Assembly: GCA_015232395.1 (NCBI GenBank)
Contig: JADFZT010000005.1
Coordinates: 72,298-106,828, forward strand
DNA: 34,531 nt
Direction of reading: 5' to 3'
Source of the DNA: Magnetococcales bacterium
GTDB taxonomy: Bacteria; Pseudomonadota; Magnetococcia; Magnetococcales; JADFZT01
Shown here piece after piece: positions 16,335-34,531 of the stretch. The position numbers and the translations under genes are program-made. The notes beneath the pieces are model-generated. The model worked only from the letters and a program-made list of their open reading frames with translations, ran no database searches and was not told the origin of the DNA. How positions within the stretch are numbered: the first letter of the stretch is position 1; each line of letters starts with the position of its first letter.

Positions 16335-16386
16335 CTGTTTTGGTTTTTCGGGGTTCGGCGTCTCTCCCTCATTGCGGACCCCGCCC

Positions 16387-19300
16387 ATGTCTTTTATTGC
16401 TGATCTGCACATCCATTCCAAATATTCCCGGGCCACCAGCCGGGAATGCGACCTGGAAAATCTCGCCCTCTGGAGCCGGAAAAAAGGTGTTTCGGTGCTG
16501 GGTACCGGGGATTTTACCCATCCCGCCTGGTTCGAGGAGATCTCCACCAAGCTCGTTGCCGCCGAGCCCGGCCTCTTCCGCTTGCGGGAAGAGCTGGAGC
16601 GGGGGGTTGAAAGCCGCTTGAAGGGGTTTGCCGGTGAGCCGATTCGCTTTCAGCTGACCGTTGAAATTTCCACCATCTATAAATCCGGTCCCAAAACCCG
16701 CAAAGTCCACCACCTGATATCGATGCCCGATCTGGAGGCCGCCCAGCGCTTTAATGCCCAGCTGGATCGCATCGGCAATATCCACTCCGACGGTCGCCCC
16801 ATTCTGGGTTTGGATTCCCGTGATCTGTTGGAAATTGTTCTGGCATCGGGGGAGGGGGGGTGGCTGATTCCCGCCCACATCTGGACCCCGTGGTTTTCGA
16901 TGTTGGGGTCGAAGTCGGGGTTTGATTCCGTCGCGGAGTGTTATCGGGATCTTGCCCCGCATATTTTTGCCTTGGAGACCGGCCTGTCGTCGGATCCCCC
17001 CATGAACTGGCAGATTTCCGGATTGGATGATTACCGTCTGGTCTCCAACTCCGACGCCCATTCACCCATGAAACTGGGGCGGGAGGCGACCCGTTTTGAG
17101 ACCCCTCTGGACTATTTTGCCATGGTGGCGGCGTTGAAGAGTGGGGTGGGGTATGGGGGGACGTTGGAATTTTTTCCCGAGGAGGGAAAATATCACCTGG
17201 ATGGCCATCGCAAGTGTGGGGTGCGGCTGGAGCCGGAAGAGACCCGGGAGCGGGAGGGGCTCTGTCCGAGTTGTGGCAAGCCGGTGGTGGTGGGGGTGTT
17301 GAACCGGGTGGAAGAGCTGTCGGACCGCCAGGAAGGGATTCGACCGCAGAGTGGCGGGGATTTTACTTCGCTCATTCCCTTGCAGGAGATCATCTCTGAG
17401 ATCGAAGGGGTGGGGCCGGGTTCCAAGCGGGTGCAGCGGAGTTATGAAACGTTGCTCTCCAAGCTCGGACCGGAGCTTTATATTTTGGAAAAAGCCCCCC
17501 TGGAAGATCTACACCGGGCCGGGTCGGAGCGGTTTGCCGAGGCGATCTCCCGTTTGCGGGAGAGCCGGGTGATTCGCCAAGGGGGGTATGATGGGGCGTT
17601 TGGGGTGATTCGTCTGTTTGAGCCTGACGAATTGGTTGAGCGCACTGCAGTGGGGGTGCTGTTTGATCCGGCAGAGTTGGCTGGGGAGAGCCCTGGAAGA
17701 GACAGGCCAGCCGCTAAAACCCGCCAAAAAAGGGCTCCCCGAAAGAAAAAAACCGCTCTTGCCAAGAGATCCCCAGTGCCAGCGAAAAAAGCCGATCCAG
17801 CGCTGGCCGAGGGGGGGATCCTGGCGGGGCTTGATCCAGAGCAGCGTTTGGCAGCAGAAGCCACTCGGGGGCCTGTGATGATCCTGGCAGGCCCCGGCAC
17901 CGGCAAAACCCGCACCCTCACCCGCCGTTTGTGTCAGGTGATCCAACAGGAGGGCGTCGCGCCGGAAGCGGTCCTGGCTCTCACCTTCACCCGTCGGGCG
18001 GCGGGGGAGATGGCGGAGCGGTTGGTGGCGTTGCTGCCAGGTGTAGGTGATAAAATTCCTGTCATGACCTTCCACGCCCTCGGCTGGTCGATGGTGCGGG
18101 AGCACTTTGCCGCTCTGGGGTTTGAGGCCCCCCCCACCATCGCTTCCGATATCGAGTTGACGGGATTATTGCGAGAGCTGATCGGATTATCGGCTGCCCG
18201 GGCGGCCAAGAGGCTGGGGGAAATTTCCCGGATCAAGGGGGAGGGGAGGGAGAGAGATGATCCCTTTATCGAGCGGTGGCAGCAGGCTTTGGGGGAGCGG
18301 GGGTGGGTGGATCTGGATGATTTGATCGGGTTACCCCTGGCGCTGCTTGATCAACAGGAAGCGTTGGTGGCCCACTACCGGGGGCGCTACCCTTGGGTTT
18401 CGGTGGATGAATTTCAGGATGTGGATGGGCGGCAATATCGACTGCTACGCCACTTGGTTCCTTCCGGGGGCAACCTCTGCGTGATTGGGGATCCGGATCA
18501 GGCGATCTATGGTTTTCGGGGGGGAGATGTACGCTTTTTTACTGAATTCGAACGGGATTTCGAGGAGGTGCGAGCCATTCGCCTGAGTCGCTCCTACCGC
18601 TCGGGGCCGTTGATTTTGGCGGCGGCCGGGGAGGTGATGGCGGCATCGGAAATGAAACGTGAACGTGAATTGCAGCCCATGGGAGGGGAGCCGCTACCGG
18701 TGGGGGTGCATGGGGCGCTCTCCGAAAAAGCCGAGGCGGAATTTATCGTCCAGACCCTGGAAAGGTTGCTTGGGGGGCACTCCTTTTTTTCAGTGGATTC
18801 GGGGCGGGCCGATGGGGAAGCTGAGGGCGTTTATGGATTTGCCGATTTTGCCGTGCTCTACCGCACCGATACCCAGGGGGAGGTGATGGCCGAGGCGTTA
18901 CAGCGCTCGGGTATTCCCTATCAAAAACGCTCCCACAATCGCTTGCTGGATCACCCGGGGGTGGGGGAGGTGGTGGCGCGCATGGGGGAGGGGGAAGGCT
19001 CGGTGCTTCAACGCTTGCTGGGGGATGTTGAGTGCCCGGAGGCGGTAGGGGAGCTGCTGAAACCGTTGGCTGAGGCGTGTGGTGGGGATTGGGGGCTCTT
19101 CCAGGCGCGCTTGTCCATGGGGGCGGAGGTGGATTGTTGGGAAGCCAAGGCCGATCGGGTCACCTTGATGACCTTGCATGGCTCCAAGGGGTTGGAGTTT
19201 CCGGTGGTTTTTATGGTCGGTTGCGAGGAGGGGGTGTTGCCCTTGGCCTGGGGAAAAGCGGTTGAGGATCTGGAGGAGGAGCGCAGGCTTTTTTTTGTGG

Positions 19301-19506
19301 GGATGACCCGGGCGAAGGAGCGGCTTTTTCTCAGCCATGCCAAAAAGCGGCTGTGGCGGGGGAAGGTGAGGGAGGGGGAGCGGAGCCGTTTTTTGCAAGG
19401 GATATCGGAAGGGTTGCTGGAACATCACCAGGCCCCACCTCTACCGAAAAAAAAGCCGAAGCCGTTTGGCGAGCAGCTCAGTTTATTTGGGGATGAGGAT
19501 GTGTGA
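16387..19506 (+). CDS. PHP-domain phosphoesterase fused to a UvrD/PcrA-type helicase
   Basis: A 1039-residue fusion, probably in DNA repair or processing. The N-terminal part (about 1-330) is a PHP-type metal-dependent phosphoesterase: ADLHIHSKYSRATS, GTGDFTHP, IPAHIWTPWFSMLG and SNSDAHSP keep the metal-binding His/Asp residues. A Cys cluster (KCGVRL to CPSCGK) could bind zinc. A helix-hairpin-helix-like GVGPGSKR follows, then a Lys/Arg-rich linker (about 435-480). The superfamily 1 helicase half has Walker A GPGTGKT (Lys507), VDEFQD, GDPDQAIYGFRGG, LSRSYRS, MTLHGSKGLEF and FFVGMTRAKERL. It is shorter than UvrD, with reduced accessory subdomains. I use the ATG at 16387; a TTG at 16372 is possible, and neither start has a good ribosome site. 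The SMR gene follows after 21 bp. Confidence 0.92.
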   Translation: MSFIADLHIHSKYSRATSRECDLENLALWSRKKGVSVLGTGDFTHPAWFEEISTKLVAAEPGLFRLREELERGVESRLKGFAGEPIRFQLTVEISTIYKSGPKTRKVHHLISMPDLEAAQRFNAQLDRIGNIHSDGRPILGLDSRDLLEIVLASGEGGWLIPAHIWTPWFSMLGSKSGFDSVAECYRDLAPHIFALETGLSSDPPMNWQISGLDDYRLVSNSDAHSPMKLGREATRFETPLDYFAMVAALKSGVGYGGTLEFFPEEGKYHLDGHRKCGVRLEPEETREREGLCPSCGKPVVVGVLNRVEELSDRQEGIRPQSGGDFTSLIPLQEIISEIEGVGPGSKRVQRSYETLLSKLGPELYILEKAPLEDLHRAGSERFAEAISRLRESRVIRQGGYDGAFGVIRLFEPDELVERTAVGVLFDPAELAGESPGRDRPAAKTRQKRAPRKKKTALAKRSPVPAKKADPALAEGGILAGLDPEQRLAAEATRGPVMILAGPGTGKTRTLTRRLCQVIQQEGVAPEAVLALTFTRRAAGEMAERLVALLPGVGDKIPVMTFHALGWSMVREHFAALGFEAPPTIASDIELTGLLRELIGLSAARAAKRLGEISRIKGEGRERDDPFIERWQQALGERGWVDLDDLIGLPLALLDQQEALVAHYRGRYPWVSVDEFQDVDGRQYRLLRHLVPSGGNLCVIGDPDQAIYGFRGGDVRFFTEFERDFEEVRAIRLSRSYRSGPLILAAAGEVMAASEMKRERELQPMGGEPLPVGVHGALSEKAEAEFIVQTLERLLGGHSFFSVDSGRADGEAEGVYGFADFAVLYRTDTQGEVMAEALQRSGIPYQKRSHNRLLDHPGVGEVVARMGEGEGSVLQRLLGDVECPEAVGELLKPLAEACGGDWGLFQARLSMGAEVDCWEAKADRVTLMTLHGSKGLEFPVVFMVGCEEGVLPLAWGKAVEDLEEERRLFFVGMTRAKERLFLSHAKKRLWRGKVREGERSRFLQGISEGLLEHHQAPPLPKKKPKPFGEQLSLFGDEDV

Positions 19507-26431: not shown

Positions 26432-27739
26432 TTATGCCCCGATGTAGCCCCGCTCGTCGTGGAGGGAGATATCGAGTCCCATGATTTCACTCTCCTCATC
26501 CACCCGCAGGCCCAGGGTGGCATCGATGATTTTGAGGAGCAGGAAGCTGATGATGCCGCAATAGACCGCTGTCACCACCACACTCATGGTCTGGGCCGCT
26601 ACCTGCCCACTCATGGTCATCCCTTCAGCCAGCCCCACACCACCCAGATCAGCGGAGACGAAGACGCCGGTGAGGATGGCACCGACGATGCCGCCGACAC
26701 CGTGGACACCGAAGGCGTCGAGAGAGTCATCGTAGCCCAGCTTGCGTTTCATGGTGGTCGCACTCCAAAAGCAGACAAAGCCTGAGATGGCACCGATGGC
26801 CAACGCTCCCATGGGCCCAACGAATCCCGAGGCCGGGGTGATGGCGACAAGCCCGCCCACAGCACCGGTCACAATACCCAGGACACTCGGTTTGCCGTGA
26901 CGCACCCACTCGGCGAACATCCAGGCCAGCGCCGCCGTGGCGGAGGCCAACTGGGTCACCACCATGGCCATGCCCGCCGTGCCGTCTGCCGCCAGTTCAC
27001 TGCCCGCATTGAATCCAAACCAGCCCACCCATAGCATCCCAGCACCAATCACCGTCAGGGGCAGGTTGTGAGGAGGCATGGCGGTGGTGGGAAAGCCCCG
27101 GCGCTTGCCGAGAACCAGTGCCGCGACCAGGCCCGCTACACCGGCATTGATGTGCACCACCGTACCTCCTGCAAAGTCCAGCACCCCGTGATCTCCCATC
27201 CAGCCACCACCCCACACCCAGTGACAGACCGGGATATAGACCAGGGTGACCCAAAAGGTGAGGAAAATCAGCATCGCCGAAAATTTCATCCGCTCCGCAA
27301 AGGCCCCCACGATCAGCGCCGGGGTGATGATGGCGAAGGTCATCTGGAAGGTCATGAACACCCCCTCCGGGATGGTGCCGGAGAGGGAATCGGGGGTGAC
27401 CCCCAAGAGAAAGGCTTTATTGAGACCGCCAATCACGGCATTGACTGAACCGCCATCTTCAAAGGCTAGGCTATAGCCGTAAACCGCCCAGAGCACCGTC
27501 ATCAGCGAGGTGATGGCGAAACATTGCATGAGCACGGAGAGAACATTTTTGGCCCGTACCATGCCCGCATAAAAAAGCGAGAGGCCGGGGATGGTCATGA
27601 AGAGCACCAGGGCCGTTGCGGTCAACATCCAGGCGGTATCACCGGAGTTGAGTTGGGCGGCTTCTTGTGCATGGGCCAGGGTGGGGATGAATAGGGTCGG
27701 GGCCAGTAGAGCCAGGGACCATTTTCCGGGGGTGTGCAT
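26432..27739 (-). CDS. amtB: Ammonium transporter AmtB
   Basis: Trimeric inner-membrane ammonium channel, 435 residues with about eleven helices. An N-terminal signal-like segment (LALLAPTLFIPTLAHAQ) precedes the first periplasmic part, as in several Amt proteins. Family motifs are VLFMTIPGLSLFYAGMVR and DFAGGTVVHINAG, which carries the first pore histidine. GMLWVGWFGFNAGS and DAFGVHGVGG, with the second pore histidine, are also present. The cytosolic tail (about 400-435) is where GlnK docks. The ATG at 27739 has an AGGAGG site 5 nt upstream; an apparent earlier start at 27769 is outside the family. It is 33 bp downstream of glnK, the usual pairing. Confidence 0.97.
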   Translation of the reverse strand: MHTPGKWSLALLAPTLFIPTLAHAQEAAQLNSGDTAWMLTATALVLFMTIPGLSLFYAGMVRAKNVLSVLMQCFAITSLMTVLWAVYGYSLAFEDGGSVNAVIGGLNKAFLLGVTPDSLSGTIPEGVFMTFQMTFAIITPALIVGAFAERMKFSAMLIFLTFWVTLVYIPVCHWVWGGGWMGDHGVLDFAGGTVVHINAGVAGLVAALVLGKRRGFPTTAMPPHNLPLTVIGAGMLWVGWFGFNAGSELAADGTAGMAMVVTQLASATAALAWMFAEWVRHGKPSVLGIVTGAVGGLVAITPASGFVGPMGALAIGAISGFVCFWSATTMKRKLGYDDSLDAFGVHGVGGIVGAILTGVFVSADLGGVGLAEGMTMSGQVAAQTMSVVVTAVYCGIISFLLLKIIDATLGLRVDEESEIMGLDISLHDERGYIGA

Positions 27740-27772
27740 GATATCCTCCTTGATAGCTGCTTCGAGCACGTT

Positions 27773-28195
<423 letters not shown>

Positions 28196-29410: not shown

Positions 29411-29677
29411 GTCGGATGATTTTGGCAACCCCCTGGACTTTGCTGGAAAACCCTGCTGTTGTGTCCGGTAAATTCATTTAAAATCCCGGGAAGTCCACTG
29501 CTGGAAAGGGCGTTTTCCATGATGGTAAAAGGGTTTTTGTGCTCCCTATCATCCCCGTGGTGACGCGAGCCTGCCATTGCGGTGGAAGCTCCTGTGGGCT
29601 ATTAATAGCGCGATTCCAGGCCCAGGTCTTCAGCCTGAGGGCCGTTACCAACCCCAGCCATGCAACCGGGGGGTGCC
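29411..29677. other. Intergenic region before the giant coiled-coil gene
   Basis: No gene is supported here. Short imperfect repeats of TGCTGGAAA occur near 29436 and 29499. A weak TAAAAT box lies near 29480, but no well-spaced -35 is seen. A stop codon in frame at 29636-29638 limits how far upstream the next gene can begin. Confidence 0.5.
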
Positions 29678-32600
29678 ATGGGTAGATCCTCTTTCTTTTC
29701 AACGCTCGTTTCCGCCCTCTGGACCCTGACGCTGATCAGCGTCTCGGTTTATGCGGGTTATTATGTCGCGCTGATTCTGGATTGGTCCATTGTCCAGAGC
29801 TACATCACCCTTCCCGGGTTTTTAAGCGTTCCCCTGGAGTATCAGACCGAGACCCCCATCATTCGCACGTTGGCCGGGGTGATTTCCGGATTTTTGCTCT
29901 TCTTCATCATCTGCTATGTCTGGCAGGCCTTCTGGGACGCCTTTCGCCTGGGAATGGTCAGCCGCTCCCTGCGGGTGGCGATGAAAAAGGGCCGTCTGGA
30001 AAATCCCGAACGTCCGGTGATCGATTGGGGTTGGTTTTACTATCCGCTCTTCAGCCGTTTATGGCGGGATTTTGCCGAAACCCTCCACTGTCAGCGTCAC
30101 CCGGATGCCAAGGTGGATGAAAACCGGGTGCAGTATCGTGCAACAGCCCCCGCAGAGCTTCATTTTAGTCCCCAAACCCTGGTAGACACCCCCATGAAGG
30201 TGGAGTTTTTCCGCCACCTTCCCGGCATCCTCACCGGTGCGGGTATCGTCAGCACCTTTGCCGGTATTCTCCTGGGCTTGACCGAGTTTAATCCGGTGGT
30301 GGAGCCCGATCAGGTCACCTTACAGCTGCAAAACCTCTTCATGGGGGTTTCAACCGCCTTCGTCGCCTCCTTTTTTGCCATTTTCACCGCTATCTGCATC
30401 ACCGTGGTGGAAAAGCTGCTGCTCCACTGGCGCTATGCCCAGGTGACGGCGCTCCAGGGACGTCTGGACGATATGTTTCAGGCTGGGGTGGAGCCGGAAT
30501 ATCTGGCAGAGCTGGTCAAGAGCGGGAGCGAGCAATCCGACCGTCTGGAGGCTCTGGCGACCCAGTTTGTTCCCCGCCTCACCGCTTTTTTGGAGCGCTC
30601 CGGTGAGTCTGACGCTCTGCAAGGGGGAGCCCTTGATAAAATTTTGGATCCTCTGGCCGAAAAGCTGGCTGCAAGCCAAGCCAACCAAACCCGGGCACTG
30701 GCGGAAAAATTGGCTGAAAACCAGGCCAATCAAACCCGGGCGCTGGCAGAAGCGCTCAAAAATGGCCTGAACGAGCCCCTCAAGCTGATCTCCAAATCGG
30801 TACAGGTGACCCTGGAGGAGCAGCGCAAGGGGGGGGAATCCATCGATGCTCTCAAGAGCGGCTTGGAGGGTGTGGGTGAAAAACTGGACCGGATTGTCGG
30901 TGCGGTGAATGGCCTGGATGGGGTGTTGCGTGACGGGCACAACGACCACGCCCAGCGGATGGCCCGGGAAGCGGAGGCCACCGGGCAGAGGGCGGATGAG
31001 CAAGCCCGACACCTCAAAGAGGGGCTTCAGGGGCTGGGAGAGCGGTTCGAGACGGTTGGTGATCGACTCCAAGGGGCCATCGCCGGGTTGCAACAAAACG
31101 GTGAGGGTATCCAACAGCTGCTGGAAAAACAGACCAATCAGCTGGCTCAGGGGGAAGAACGGGATCAGGAGCAGGCCCTGAAGCAGGCTCGGGCTCAGGA
31201 GCAGGCTCAGGAGCAGGCCCAAGCTTTGACCCAGGGTTTGGAGGGGTTAAGCCAAAAGCTGGATGAGGGGGTCGCTGCCGTCAAAGAGATCTCCGGCTCC
31301 GTGGATAAAACGATGGGGGGGCTTTCCAGCTCTCTAAATGAAACGATGACAGGGATCTCCAGCTCTCTGAATAAAGAGTTGGGAGCTCTTTCCAGCTCTC
31401 TGAATGAAACGATGACAGGGATCTCCAGCTCCCTGGATGAAACGATGACGGGACTTTCCAGCTCCCTGAATGAACAAACAGGAGGGCTTTCCAGCTCCCT
31501 GAATGAAACGATGACGGGACTTTCCAGCTCCCTGAATAAAGAGATGGGGGGGATGACCGATTCCCTCACCAAGGGATTTGATACCTTGGGAGGCCAGCTC
31601 AATCAAGCGGCTGAGGGGGTTTCTGCCGTGGGTGGAAAGCTCACGGGGCTTCTGGAAAAACAGTCCAGCCAGTTGACGGCCCAGTTGGCAGACCAGGCGG
31701 CTCAGGCGGGGGATGGGGAGCAGGCCCGCGCTGATCGAATGACCCAAGGGCTGGAAGCTCTCGGAGAAAAGCTCGATCAGGCCATCGAAGGCATCGCAGC
31801 CTTTTCCCAAATGGGCTCCCAGCTGAAAGAGGTGTTGGAGGAGCAGTCCCAGGCACTGGCCCAAGGGACTCAAGGGGAACGGGAGCAAGGGCTTGAAGTC
31901 ATTGGCGCTTTGCAGAGTCTGGGAGAAAAACTGGATCAGGCAGGCCAAGGCTTGGCAGGGCTTGATGGGGCGGTTGGTGAGATATCCAATCGTCTGAAAT
32001 CCGGCTTGGATACCCTCAGACAGGGAATCGATGGCCAGGGCCAGGGGATCGAGGGAATCAACCAGGGGATTGCGGGCATCAGCCAAGGGATCGAGGGAGT
32101 CAACCAGGGGATCCATGGGTTCGGCCAAAAGGTGGAGAGTTCGGTGGCCGGGGTATCCCGGGTGGGCGGGGAGTTGCGAGGGCTTTTGCAACACCAAGCC
32201 GAGCTTCTGGAAAAAAATATCGCTGGGGAGCAAGAGCGTGCTGCCGGGGAGCGGGAACGTGGCGATATGTTGATTTTGGGCATCGAAGAGTTGGGAGAAA
32301 AGGTGAATGGGGCGGTTTCCGGCATTTCCGATGCCTTGAAGGGGGGGGTGGGGGATCTCAAGAGCCAGCTGGCCCAGAGCCATGCCGGAATCGATGGGCT
32401 TGGCGAGGTGCTACAAGGGGTGTTGGCCAGCCAAACCGCCCGGCAGGAAGTGGAAGGCACGGAGCAACAGGCGCAGTCGGAACGGGTTTCCATCGCTTTG
32501 GATGGTCTCGGTAGCCGGTTGGATCAGATCGGTCAGCAGCTGGATGGGGCGGCATCCGGGATTTCCGCAGGCCTGACTTCGGAGCTTCAAGCCCTGGGAG

Positions 32601-34531
32601 GCAAGCTGGACCAGGCGGTATCGGGGGCCTCGGATATTTCGGATGTGGGCTTGGAGATTCAAAATATTTTGGAAAGCCAAGCCTCCCTTCTGACCGAATC
32701 TGCCGAACGGGACAAAGAGACCGCACAAAGGCAGGGTCAGGGATTGGAGAGCATCGGCGAACGGATGGATGGTGCCCTGTCGGTGGTCGCCAAGGCTCTT
32801 GATGGCGGCTTTAAGGAGTTGGGGGATAAAGTGGACCTGGGGGTTGCCGGGATAGCCGACCTGGGAGCGGGCCTCACCGGATCGTTGGCCAAGCAGGCGA
32901 CGGAACTGAGCCAACAAACCAGCCGTTTGAACGACTCTGCCCAGAAAGGTCAGGAGGGGCTTGCCGCCGTTGCGGAAAAACTTCAGGGGTTGGGTGACAA
33001 GCTGGATGGGGGAATCAATGCCCTGGCAGATGCCGGAGGAGAACTCAAGGGGCTCATGGAAGATCAATCCGCCCTGATGGTGGATGCCGCCCAACAGGAG
33101 CGCCATTTAAGCCAAACCCTCAACACCGCACTGGATGGGATAGGCGAAAAACTGGCTGACTCTCTGGCGCTGTTGCGTCGTGAGTTGGGGGAGCGGGGTG
33201 AGCGCCTGGATCGGGTTTTGGATGCCATTCCCACCACGCTGACAACAGGCTCCCAGCAGGTCAAAAAAGCCCTTGAGAGTGGCCTGGTCGCCATACCCCA
33301 GCTGGTGGAAAATCTGGAAGCTCTGCGCCAGGAGCAGGGGGAGCGGGCCTTGATTCTGCGTCAGGATCAAGATGCCAGAGACAAGGCCTTGCGCCAGGAT
33401 CAAGACGCCCGGGACAAGGCGTTGCGCCAGGAGCAGGATAGCCGCAGTCAGGCGGAACGCTCTCTGCTGGAATCCGCTCTCACCACCAATCGCCTCTCTC
33501 TGGAAAAAGGGGTGGCCGCACTCCACGACAAGCTCCATGAGGTGGCGCAAAAGCTGCCCTCAGGTAGCGATATCCAGAGCTTGATGAAAGAGCTTTCCCA
33601 AGCCCAACAGCAGGCTGACAAGGAGCGGGATGCCTTTCTTTTGAATCGCCTCAGCGCCGGTCAGGGGGAGTTGATTGAGCGGGTGGAAAAATCCTTCAAC
33701 GCGGGCCAAGGAGCCCTGGTCGAGCGGGTGAAGGAGTCCTTCGATGCCGGATTGGAACAGCCGGTACAGGAGATTGTCGAGCGGGTCTCGGAAGTGCGGG
33801 AGGCGCAACTCGCCCAGGGGCGGGAGTTGAGTGAAGGCATTTTGAACGCTTTTGCCCATCAGCTCCGTGAGACCGTCAGCAGCTTGGGGGATCGTCTGGG
33901 AGAACTTGGAGAGCGAATCACCAGTGAGCGGGAAGGGATGGAGGCCACCTTTAAAAATTTGGTGGTGGCCATGGGCGAGGCTGCCGAACAGGGGGGAGAA
34001 AAGCTCTCTTCCCAGCTGGACAGGGCTTTGGCCGGTAGTGAGCTGCGCCAGGATGAGCTGATCGAATCCCTGACCAAATTTACCGCCGATATCCGGGTGG
34101 ATCTCGACCAGTTGCAGGTCAAAATCCGGGACACCTCACAGGAGCTTTCCGACAATCTGGTCAGCCAGACCCAGGAAATATCCGCTCAAACCGGTGAGGC
34201 CACCGAACAGCGTATCGAAGCCTCTACCAGTCAGCTTTCCCGGGAATTCAAGGCTACCCTGCAAAAATTGGAGCAGGAGCAGGCCCAGCGGGAGAAGAGC
34301 CGGGAGAAGGATCTCATGGCCCGGCTCCAGGCTGGGGACGATGATCTGGCCAAGCGTCTGGTTACAGCCATCCAGTCCGATCTGGCTGGATCAGCCGATG
34401 GTCTGGCCGAGCGGCTTCAGAGTGCGATCCAAAAGGATTTGAGCAGTTCCACGGATGGTCTGGCCGAGCGGCTTCAGAGTGCGATCCAAAAGGATTTGAG
34501 CAGTTCCACGGATGGTCTGGCCGAGCGGCTT
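29678..34531 (+). CDS. Giant ZorA-like MotA/TolQ/ExbB channel protein with coiled-coil tail (open at window edge)
   Basis: At least 1618 codons with no stop before the right edge. Two N-terminal helices (about residues 5-30 and 60-85) precede a soluble segment. The proton-channel-type core follows: LPGILTGAGIVSTFAGILLGL (about 181-201) and LFMGVSTAFVASFFAIFTAI (about 220-240). This two-helix pattern is that of MotA/TolQ/ExbB proteins and closely resembles ZorA of the Zorya anti-phage system. From about residue 255 on the protein is a continuous, Gln/Glu/Leu/Gly-rich predicted coiled coil with internal repeats, far longer than I expect for ZorA (roughly 500-750 residues). Start ATG 29678 follows GGGGG; an ATG at 29660 is in frame but lacks a ribosome site. 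A ZorB-like OmpA/peptidoglycan partner would be expected downstream, outside the window. A non-defence stator role is the main alternative. Confidence 0.85.
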   Translation, partial: MGRSSFFSTLVSALWTLTLISVSVYAGYYVALILDWSIVQSYITLPGFLSVPLEYQTETPIIRTLAGVISGFLLFFIICYVWQAFWDAFRLGMVSRSLRVAMKKGRLENPERPVIDWGWFYYPLFSRLWRDFAETLHCQRHPDAKVDENRVQYRATAPAELHFSPQTLVDTPMKVEFFRHLPGILTGAGIVSTFAGILLGLTEFNPVVEPDQVTLQLQNLFMGVSTAFVASFFAIFTAICITVVEKLLLHWRYAQVTALQGRLDDMFQAGVEPEYLAELVKSGSEQSDRLEALATQFVPRLTAFLERSGESDALQGGALDKILDPLAEKLAASQANQTRALAEKLAENQANQTRALAEALKNGLNEPLKLISKSVQVTLEEQRKGGESIDALKSGLEGVGEKLDRIVGAVNGLDGVLRDGHNDHAQRMAREAEATGQRADEQARHLKEGLQGLGERFETVGDRLQGAIAGLQQNGEGIQQLLEKQTNQLAQGEERDQEQALKQARAQEQAQEQAQALTQGLEGLSQKLDEGVAAVKEISGSVDKTMGGLSSSLNETMTGISSSLNKELGALSSSLNETMTGISSSLDETMTGLSSSLNEQTGGLSSSLNETMTGLSSSLNKEMGGMTDSLTKGFDTLGGQLNQAAEGVSAVGGKLTGLLEKQSSQLTAQLADQAAQAGDGEQARADRMTQGLEALGEKLDQAIEGIAAFSQMGSQLKEVLEEQSQALAQGTQGEREQGLEVIGALQSLGEKLDQAGQGLAGLDGAVGEISNRLKSGLDTLRQGIDGQGQGIEGINQGIAGISQGIEGVNQGIHGFGQKVESSVAGVSRVGGELRGLLQHQAELLEKNIAGEQERAAGERERGDMLILGIEELGEKVNGAVSGISDALKGGVGDLKSQLAQSHAGIDGLGEVLQGVLASQTARQEVEGTEQQAQSERVSIALDGLGSRLDQIGQQLDGAASGISAGLTSELQALGGKLDQAVSGASDISDVGLEIQNILESQASLLTESAERDKETAQRQGQGLESIGERMDGALSVVAKALDGGFKELGDKVDLGVAGIADLGAGLTGSLAKQATELSQQTSRLNDSAQKGQEGLAAVAEKLQGLGDKLDGGINALADAGGELKGLMEDQSALMVDAAQQERHLSQTLNTALDGIGEKLADSLALLRRELGERGERLDRVLDAIPTTLTTGSQQVKKALESGLVAIPQLVENLEALRQEQGERALILRQDQDARDKALRQDQDARDKALRQEQDSRSQAERSLLESALTTNRLSLEKGVAALHDKLHEVAQKLPSGSDIQSLMKELSQAQQQADKERDAFLLNRLSAGQGELIERVEKSFNAGQGALVERVKESFDAGLEQPVQEIVERVSEVREAQLAQGRELSEGILNAFAHQLRETVSSLGDRLGELGERITSEREGMEATFKNLVVAMGEAAEQGGEKLSSQLDRALAGSELRQDELIESLTKFTADIRVDLDQLQVKIRDTSQELSDNLVSQTQEISAQTGEATEQRIEASTSQLSREFKATLQKLEQEQAQREKSREKDLMARLQAGDDDLAKRLVTAIQSDLAGSADGLAERLQSAIQKDLSSSTDGLAERLQSAIQKDLSSSTDGLAERL
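31325..31555 (+). repeat. Seven tandem 33-bp units encoding 11-residue SSSLNETMTGI-type repeats
   Basis: Within the coiled-coil tail, seven consecutive 11-residue units of the type SSSLNETMTGI, SSSLNKELGAL and SSSLNEQTGGL occur. DNA copies are highly similar, including blocks such as TCCAGCTCCCTGAATGAAAC. An 11-residue (hendecad) period favours straight or right-handed coiled coils rather than the usual seven-residue left-handed type. Confidence 0.9.
32021..32130 (+). repeat. 21-bp tandem units encoding GIxGxxQ heptads
   Basis: About five consecutive seven-residue units (GIDGQGQ, GIEGINQ, GIAGISQ, GIEGVNQ, GIHGFGQ). The high Gly content could mark a flexible or less helical break in the tail, or a beta-type repeat. 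Confidence 0.75.
33359..33457 (+). repeat. Three 33-bp units encoding RQDQDARDKAL repeats
   Basis: Two identical 11-residue units RQDQDARDKAL are followed by a diverged one, RQEQDSRSQAE. It is a second hendecad block in the same tail, here highly charged and strongly helical. Confidence 0.85.
34397..34531 (+). repeat. 57-bp tandem repeat in the giant gene, running off the window
   Basis: Units start at 34397, 34454 and 34511 and are identical as far as can be seen in the overlap, each encoding DGLAERLQSAIQKDLSSST (19 residues). The third copy is cut by the window edge. Identity at DNA level, including silent positions, indicates recent duplication or gene conversion, so copy number may vary among strains and may be mis-assembled from short reads. 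Confidence 0.92.

Follow-up and report, generated by a model that had tools for sequence, protein, structure and literature searches.

A Zorya-related motor operon with a length-variable rod and CYTH-CHAD and HDOD partners in Magnetococcales

A motor closely related to that of Zorya is present in most magnetotactic cocci. It is encoded by an operon in which the genes for a ZorA-like channel protein and a ZorB-like partner are joined by genes for a CYTH-CHAD and an HDOD protein. The motor core, the operon and its inheritance are well supported, and the long tail of the ZorA-like protein is a species-variable trait with a constant tip. We put at about even the chance that these loci constitute a lineage-core, non-defence branch of ZorAB with its own partners, a length-variable rod and a fixed docking tip, that is, a separate use of the Zorya motor. 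To our knowledge, descriptions of ZorAB have so far been confined to phage defence.

Gene structure and assembly

The window analysed here, by which we mean the whole stretch of 34,531 nucleotides, covers positions 72298-106828 in a Magnetococcales contig of 113,810 bases. The ZorA-like gene, comprising motor and rod, extends to its end (29678..34531, + strand) and is defined by an open frame, by matches to ZorA models and PDB structures and by its continuation to a stop codon. The ATG at 29660 is an alternative start for this frame, and the ATG at 29678 is the start that fits the homologues; reading from the latter gives 1,618 residues open up to the window end. The window end has no biological meaning and marks where a 99-N assembly gap begins within perfect 57-bp repeats; past the gap the frame resumes and runs for 184 residues to a stop (L003:5936-6490, L003 being a further stretch of the contig whose position n is window position n + 28702). 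If the gap, whose size is a guess, stands for 33 residues, the protein comprises ~1,835 aa.

The perfect 57-bp (19-residue) repeats detected by Tandem Repeats Finder (34397..34531 and L003:5700-5928, + strand) abut the gap, and the assembly of the window genome therefore probably has too few repeats in the rod. An assembly artefact as the source of the long protein was ruled out by a ~1,790-aa orthologue in the single-contig genome G011, and orthologues of similar length to the window protein occur in many other genomes besides.

Motor core

The segment LPGILTGAGIVSTFAGILLGL, at residues 181-201 (30218-30280), had been read from the letters of the window as part of a MotA/TolQ/ExbB-type helix pair following two membrane helices. 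The pair is borne out by ZorA models, PDB matches and the AlphaFold2 fold, and the helices of the AlphaFold2 model (residues 2-33, 60-103, 181-203 and 210-266) are consistent with the same total of four membrane helices. The first of these (29681..29776, + strand) is predicted to be an additional N-terminal membrane helix; it precedes the part aligned with E. coli ZorA, an alignment that begins at query position 64 in the PDB profile comparison. The ZorA channel helix pair (30218..30475, + strand) contains T193 (30254-30256) and S231 (30368-30370), which alignment with 8qyy equates with T147 and S184 of E. coli ZorA and which are invariant among the 24 ZorA-like proteins compared.

Both profile and fold comparisons place the N-terminus within the ZorA/motor group, as had been proposed. 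The first 381 residues match NF041794 ZorA1 (E=2.7e-50) and PADLOC ZorA1 (E=2.7e-68), with NCBIfam scores lying under the curated cut-offs. The best PDB matches of the N-terminal region are to E. coli ZorA (8qyy/8qyd, about 1e-66 by profile), and the AlphaFold2 model of residues 1-322 (pLDDT 87) finds its best fold match in 8qyd (E=1.3e-13).

The ZorB-like OmpA gene anticipated downstream was found, but only after two unexpected genes. Located at L003:8953-9909 (+ strand), it encodes a 318-aa protein with MotB-plug and OmpA regions, identified by Pfam, NCBIfam, PADLOC and PDB profile comparison (NF041788 ZorB1, 1.9e-56; PADLOC ZorB1, 7.8e-68; E. coli ZorB 8qyd, 1.1e-64 by profile). Its pore aspartate, D25, is invariant among orthologues, and the OmpA peptidoglycan-binding motif TD..G....N...S..R is intact in 19/19 ZorB-like orthologues; the ZorB of Zorya I systems in the same order has AS in place of TD. 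The locus hence contains a ZorA-type channel with a long cytoplasmic tail and a ZorB with a pore Asp and a peptidoglycan-binding OmpA domain, as Zorya I does, together with the ion-path channel residues of 5:2 ion-driven motors (T193 and S231 of ZorA, D25 of ZorB). By homology to solved ZorAB, the two proteins would form an A5B2 assembly with ion-driven rotation.

Partner proteins and locus

The two intervening genes encode a degenerate CYTH-CHAD protein of 510 aa (L003:6511-8043, + strand; Pfam CHAD 2.3e-14, AlphaFold2) and an HDOD protein of 294 aa (L003:8056-8940, + strand; Pfam 2.1e-34), so that the operon reads ZorA-like, CYTH-CHAD, HDOD, ZorB-like on the same strand with spacings of 12-20 bases. 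The CYTH-CHAD model (AlphaFold2, pLDDT 89) has its best fold match in E. coli YgiF, with CHAD structures next. The ExExK motif of CYTH triphosphatases is absent from 21/21 CYTH-CHAD orthologues, and on account of this loss we rejected the reading of the protein as an active triphosphatase. The conserved basic surface residues of CHAD polyphosphate-binding proteins (phosins) are missing as well: the polyphosphate-binding helices no longer have the H, R and K residues found at the corresponding positions in RcCHAD, and the net charge of the operon protein ranges from +3 to -14, whereas two stand-alone CHADs encoded in the same genome keep the polyphosphate-binding motifs and have charges of +6 and +7. 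Together, the loss of ExExK, the loss of the CHAD motifs and the charge favour an adaptor role for CYTH-CHAD over a catalytic or polyphosphate-binding one. Proteins of the HDOD type are commonly taken to be signalling adaptors, and the HD residues of the present one are kept in many families, though not in all. As far as their sequences indicate, both CYTH-CHAD and HDOD are apparently adaptor-like, non-catalytic proteins. A literature search of incomplete coverage found no paper linking ZorA to CHAD or HDOD.

The four genes are not always contiguous. In several genomes of genus g17 (family f7) the operon is split into ZorA-CHAD and HDOD-ZorB sites with all four genes kept, and in genus g7 an HDOD gene whose product is 44-47% identical to that of the window genome is unlinked from the motor genes. 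The retention of the partners despite their separation argues for a shared function.

The nuclease or helicase effectors (ZorC/D/E) that might have been expected downstream were not found at the locus. ZorC and ZorD are absent from the operon, the window genome has no ZorC match, and ZorAB is accompanied neither by ZorE nor by ZorF plus ZorG, as it would be in Zorya II/III. Neither PADLOC matches nor the Pfam domains HNH, DUF3348 or DUF2894 were found for the CYTH-CHAD, HDOD and GAF genes, and the nine flanking genes tested against PADLOC gave no match. Judged from its gene content as a Zorya defence system, the locus is deficient in effectors.

Divergently upstream of the ZorA-like gene lie a glnK-type PII gene (27773..28144, - strand), 67-75% identical and in the same place in G007, G008, G011, G017 and G018, and the amtB ammonium transporter gene (26432..27769, - strand; Pfam Ammonium_transp 2.8e-126), found in the same place in the first four of these genomes. 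At the level of families, amtB and/or glnK are divergently upstream of the ZorA-like locus in f1, f8, f9 and f12. Both genes are location markers and not parts of the machine. On the 3' side, the ZorB-like gene is followed by a gene for a GAF-membrane protein and then by an FKBP gene; no counterparts of these were seen at related loci, and the GAF-membrane gene was rejected as a machine part on that account. Elsewhere in the window, 16372-19506 (+ strand) encodes a 1,044-aa protein that combines a TIGR00375-family N-terminal half with a UvrD-type helicase; as a candidate effector it was rejected, since it lies 10 kb off with unrelated genes between.

Rod and tip

The rod (30494..34531, + strand) is recognised as a helical, length-variable tail by its hydrophobic periodicity and by its length variation among orthologues. 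Past residue 330 and with the gap excluded, the window tail comprises 1,478 residues, of which 6 are prolines, and its hydrophobic period peaks at 1.78 for a period of 3.60, where 100 shuffles reach no more than 0.38; the tails of ZorA-like proteins generally show a hydrophobic periodicity far above that of shuffles. The sequence-only reading had described a helical tail of more than 1350 residues, uninterrupted to the window edge and at least twice as long as expected. The open frame and the periodicity confirm the first part of this description, and the second agrees with the size of E. coli ZorA, which has 729 aa (8qyd) against ~1,835 aa here. True Zorya I ZorA proteins of the same order measure 670-967 aa, and the longest ZorA model among the PADLOC matches, PADLOC ZorA3, has 1,063 positions. 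The upper value of 967 aa comes from a true Zorya I ZorA at L067:8808-11711 whose relatives have 670-730 aa, and tail length may therefore vary in Zorya I too. Within any one Zorya family, component sizes have been reported to be well conserved (PMC11890865).

Among proteins whose start is present in the sequence, whole ZorA-like proteins range from 754 to 2,862 aa and rods past residue 330 from 424 to 2,532 residues, an about six-fold spread between species that corresponds to roughly 60-380 nm if the rod is a straight helix. An array of 33-bp (11-residue) repeats in the window rod (31288..31566, + strand; Tandem Repeats Finder), together with the 19-residue repeat, shows how rod lengths can change. 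The last 184 residues, which form the tip, are conserved among ZorA-like proteins. Their end, EQxVFIEMLGERLDxLRxRLRVK, is nearly invariant in 22 proteins, and the hydrophobic period of the tip is 3.62-3.66 in every case, near 11/3. The C-terminal ends of true Zorya I ZorA proteins differ from this tip, with a period peak at 3.50-3.52. The combination of a fixed motor, a variable rod and a fixed tip implies that the tip must act specifically and that control over rod length is either weak or particular to the lineage.

Distribution and inheritance

ZorB of this type is present in 31 of the 48 Magnetococcales genomes. An HDOD orthologue (above 240 bits) occurs in 31/31 motor genomes and in an additional genome of 57% completeness, and full-length CYTH-CHAD is found in 25 of the 31 motor genomes and in 0/17 others. 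Four of the six motor genomes without CYTH-CHAD belong to family f9; in the remaining two (G002, G032) the locus lies at a contig end. Families f5, f10, f13 and f14 are without a motor of this type, which indicates that the motor is dispensable. MamB-type and flagellin genes are found in 48/48 genomes and show no correlation with motor presence, so a link of the motor to magnetosome or flagellin gene content was rejected.

A branch with 100/100 support splits the 24 present-type proteins in the ZorB tree from 12 Zorya I proteins, and the present type thus does not group with known Zorya I. Within the tree, f4, f9, f12 and both f7 genera form supported groups, and the clade follows host families. 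True Zorya I occurs in seven genomes of the order, exactly those seven that have ZorC, and in three genomes (G003, G022 and G029) it is found alongside the present system.

A scan for close relatives in 85,000 species genomes, not limited by phylum, returned three loci, all from Magnetococcales MAGs. The phylum and class samples of Pseudomonadota (397, 369 and 385 genomes, about a thousand of them outside Magnetococcales) gave seven ZorB matches outside the order, all at or below 230 bits, with intact members scoring at least 385 bits; six of the seven adjoin ZorC/ZorD and one adjoins a truncated ZorA. As all these matches are weaker and of Zorya I type, the presence of the same system outside the order was rejected for the Pseudomonadota samples. 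A Zorya I-type ZorB at L105:9166-10914 has as its neighbour a ZorA truncated to 324 aa, and neither ZorC nor ZorD is matched in the vicinity; this may be a Zorya I system in decay. The search of viral contigs produced one match, a true Zorya I; the IMG/VR contig at L113:5756-11568 carries ZorA, ZorB and ZorC of Zorya I together with the beginning of ZorD.

Discussion

Inheritance, synteny, the absence of effectors and coexistence with Zorya I argue for an inherited machine rather than phage defence. The sequence-only reading had left the choice between a Zorya variant of long reach and an undescribed stator-driven system. The latter fits better, as ZorC and ZorD are absent and CYTH-CHAD and HDOD are found instead, and it is favoured also by inheritance with host families and by coexistence with Zorya I in three genomes. 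As to cellular function, we infer, with a confidence that stops somewhat short of even, an inherited ZorAB-type envelope motor whose rod tip would work an adaptor or signalling complex, and not phage killing. A ZorA-like pentamer around a ZorB-like dimer gripping peptidoglycan would make up a 5:2 ion-driven motor carrying a bundled cytoplasmic rod, its length presumably set separately in each lineage with the last 184 residues kept. The tip would most likely dock a cytoplasmic complex of HDOD and, in most families, degenerate CYTH-CHAD. Ion flow, or strain between wall and membrane, may turn or twist the rod and thereby change the state or position of the tip-bound complex deep in the cytoplasm, and the whole would amount to a mechanochemical device for transmission or signalling that is passed on vertically. 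Counting against this proposal are family f9, which has no CYTH-CHAD, the four families without the motor, and the fact that conservation of the operon would also suit an unrecognised defence.

Such a defence could be a long-reach Zorya in which ZorAB senses phage at the envelope and HDOD and CYTH-CHAD are unrecognised effectors replacing ZorC/ZorD. The ZorAB core is clearly homologous, Zorya types differ in their effector modules, and the tail of known Zorya is required for defence (PMC11890865). We nevertheless hold this reading to be unlikely, given that no nuclease, helicase or other PADLOC effector is present at the locus or in the nine flanking genes, that the system is vertically inherited and syntenic with amtB/glnK, that true Zorya I coexists with it in three genomes, and that the CYTH catalytic motif is missing.

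Two further readings assign the rod a mechanical task. The rod and its tip could place the nucleoid, the magnetosome chain, the flagellar bundle or the pole relative to the envelope, with rod length fitted to cell size; straight helical rods of the lengths found would span a sizeable part of a coccus, and both partners resemble non-catalytic adaptors. This role appears distinctly improbable against the lack of any genetic link seen to mam or cell-shape genes and the presence of MamB-type and flagellin genes also in families without the motor. Alternatively, the tip could bind CYTH-CHAD, which would grip polyphosphate and so hold or move granules. Magnetotactic cocci hyperaccumulate polyphosphate (PMC8786505), and this polymer is bound by CHAD domains, which are found at granules and whose overexpression can shift the granules to the poles (PMC6537752). 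The motif and charge test lowers this reading, because the operon protein has lost the basic CHAD motifs and the charge of stand-alone CHADs; f9, moreover, has the motor without CYTH-CHAD, and we regard a polyphosphate tether as very doubtful.

If the present loci are a separate, non-defence use of ZorAB, they possibly represent the kind of cellular machine from which a defence motor could be recruited, or the reverse. A ZorC-less inherited ZorAB relative with a six-fold range of rods and a near-invariant tip would provide a natural experiment setting the needs of motor and tip against rod length, with HDOD and CYTH-CHAD as concrete candidates for tip binding. 'Zorya' calls made from ZorAB profiles alone could mislabel such a non-canonical system.

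Among known proteins, E. coli YgiF (a CYTH-CHAD inorganic triphosphatase, 5a60) has the same two-domain fold and order as the operon CYTH-CHAD, which differs from it in the motif losses described above. MotAB, TolQR and ExbBD belong to the same 5:2 motor superfamily and share the MotB-like plug and OmpA domain in the B subunit, but their fold matches to the ZorA-like part are far weaker than those of ZorA, the Pfam MotA_ExbB match is only 0.056, and none of the FliG, TolA or TonB partners of known stators was seen at the locus. Closest are the Zorya I systems of E. coli (8qyd) and Shewanella (8vvn), which share the ZorA channel fold, the ion-site residues and a MotB-plug/OmpA ZorB, and the long helical cytoplasmic ZorA tail is likewise a feature of Zorya I. 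In place of the ZorC/ZorD of Zorya I, the present operon has HDOD and CYTH-CHAD genes, which lie between the two motor genes or next to them, and it is further set apart by its extra N-terminal helix, its wide range of rod lengths, its different C-terminal tip and its vertical inheritance as a separate clade.
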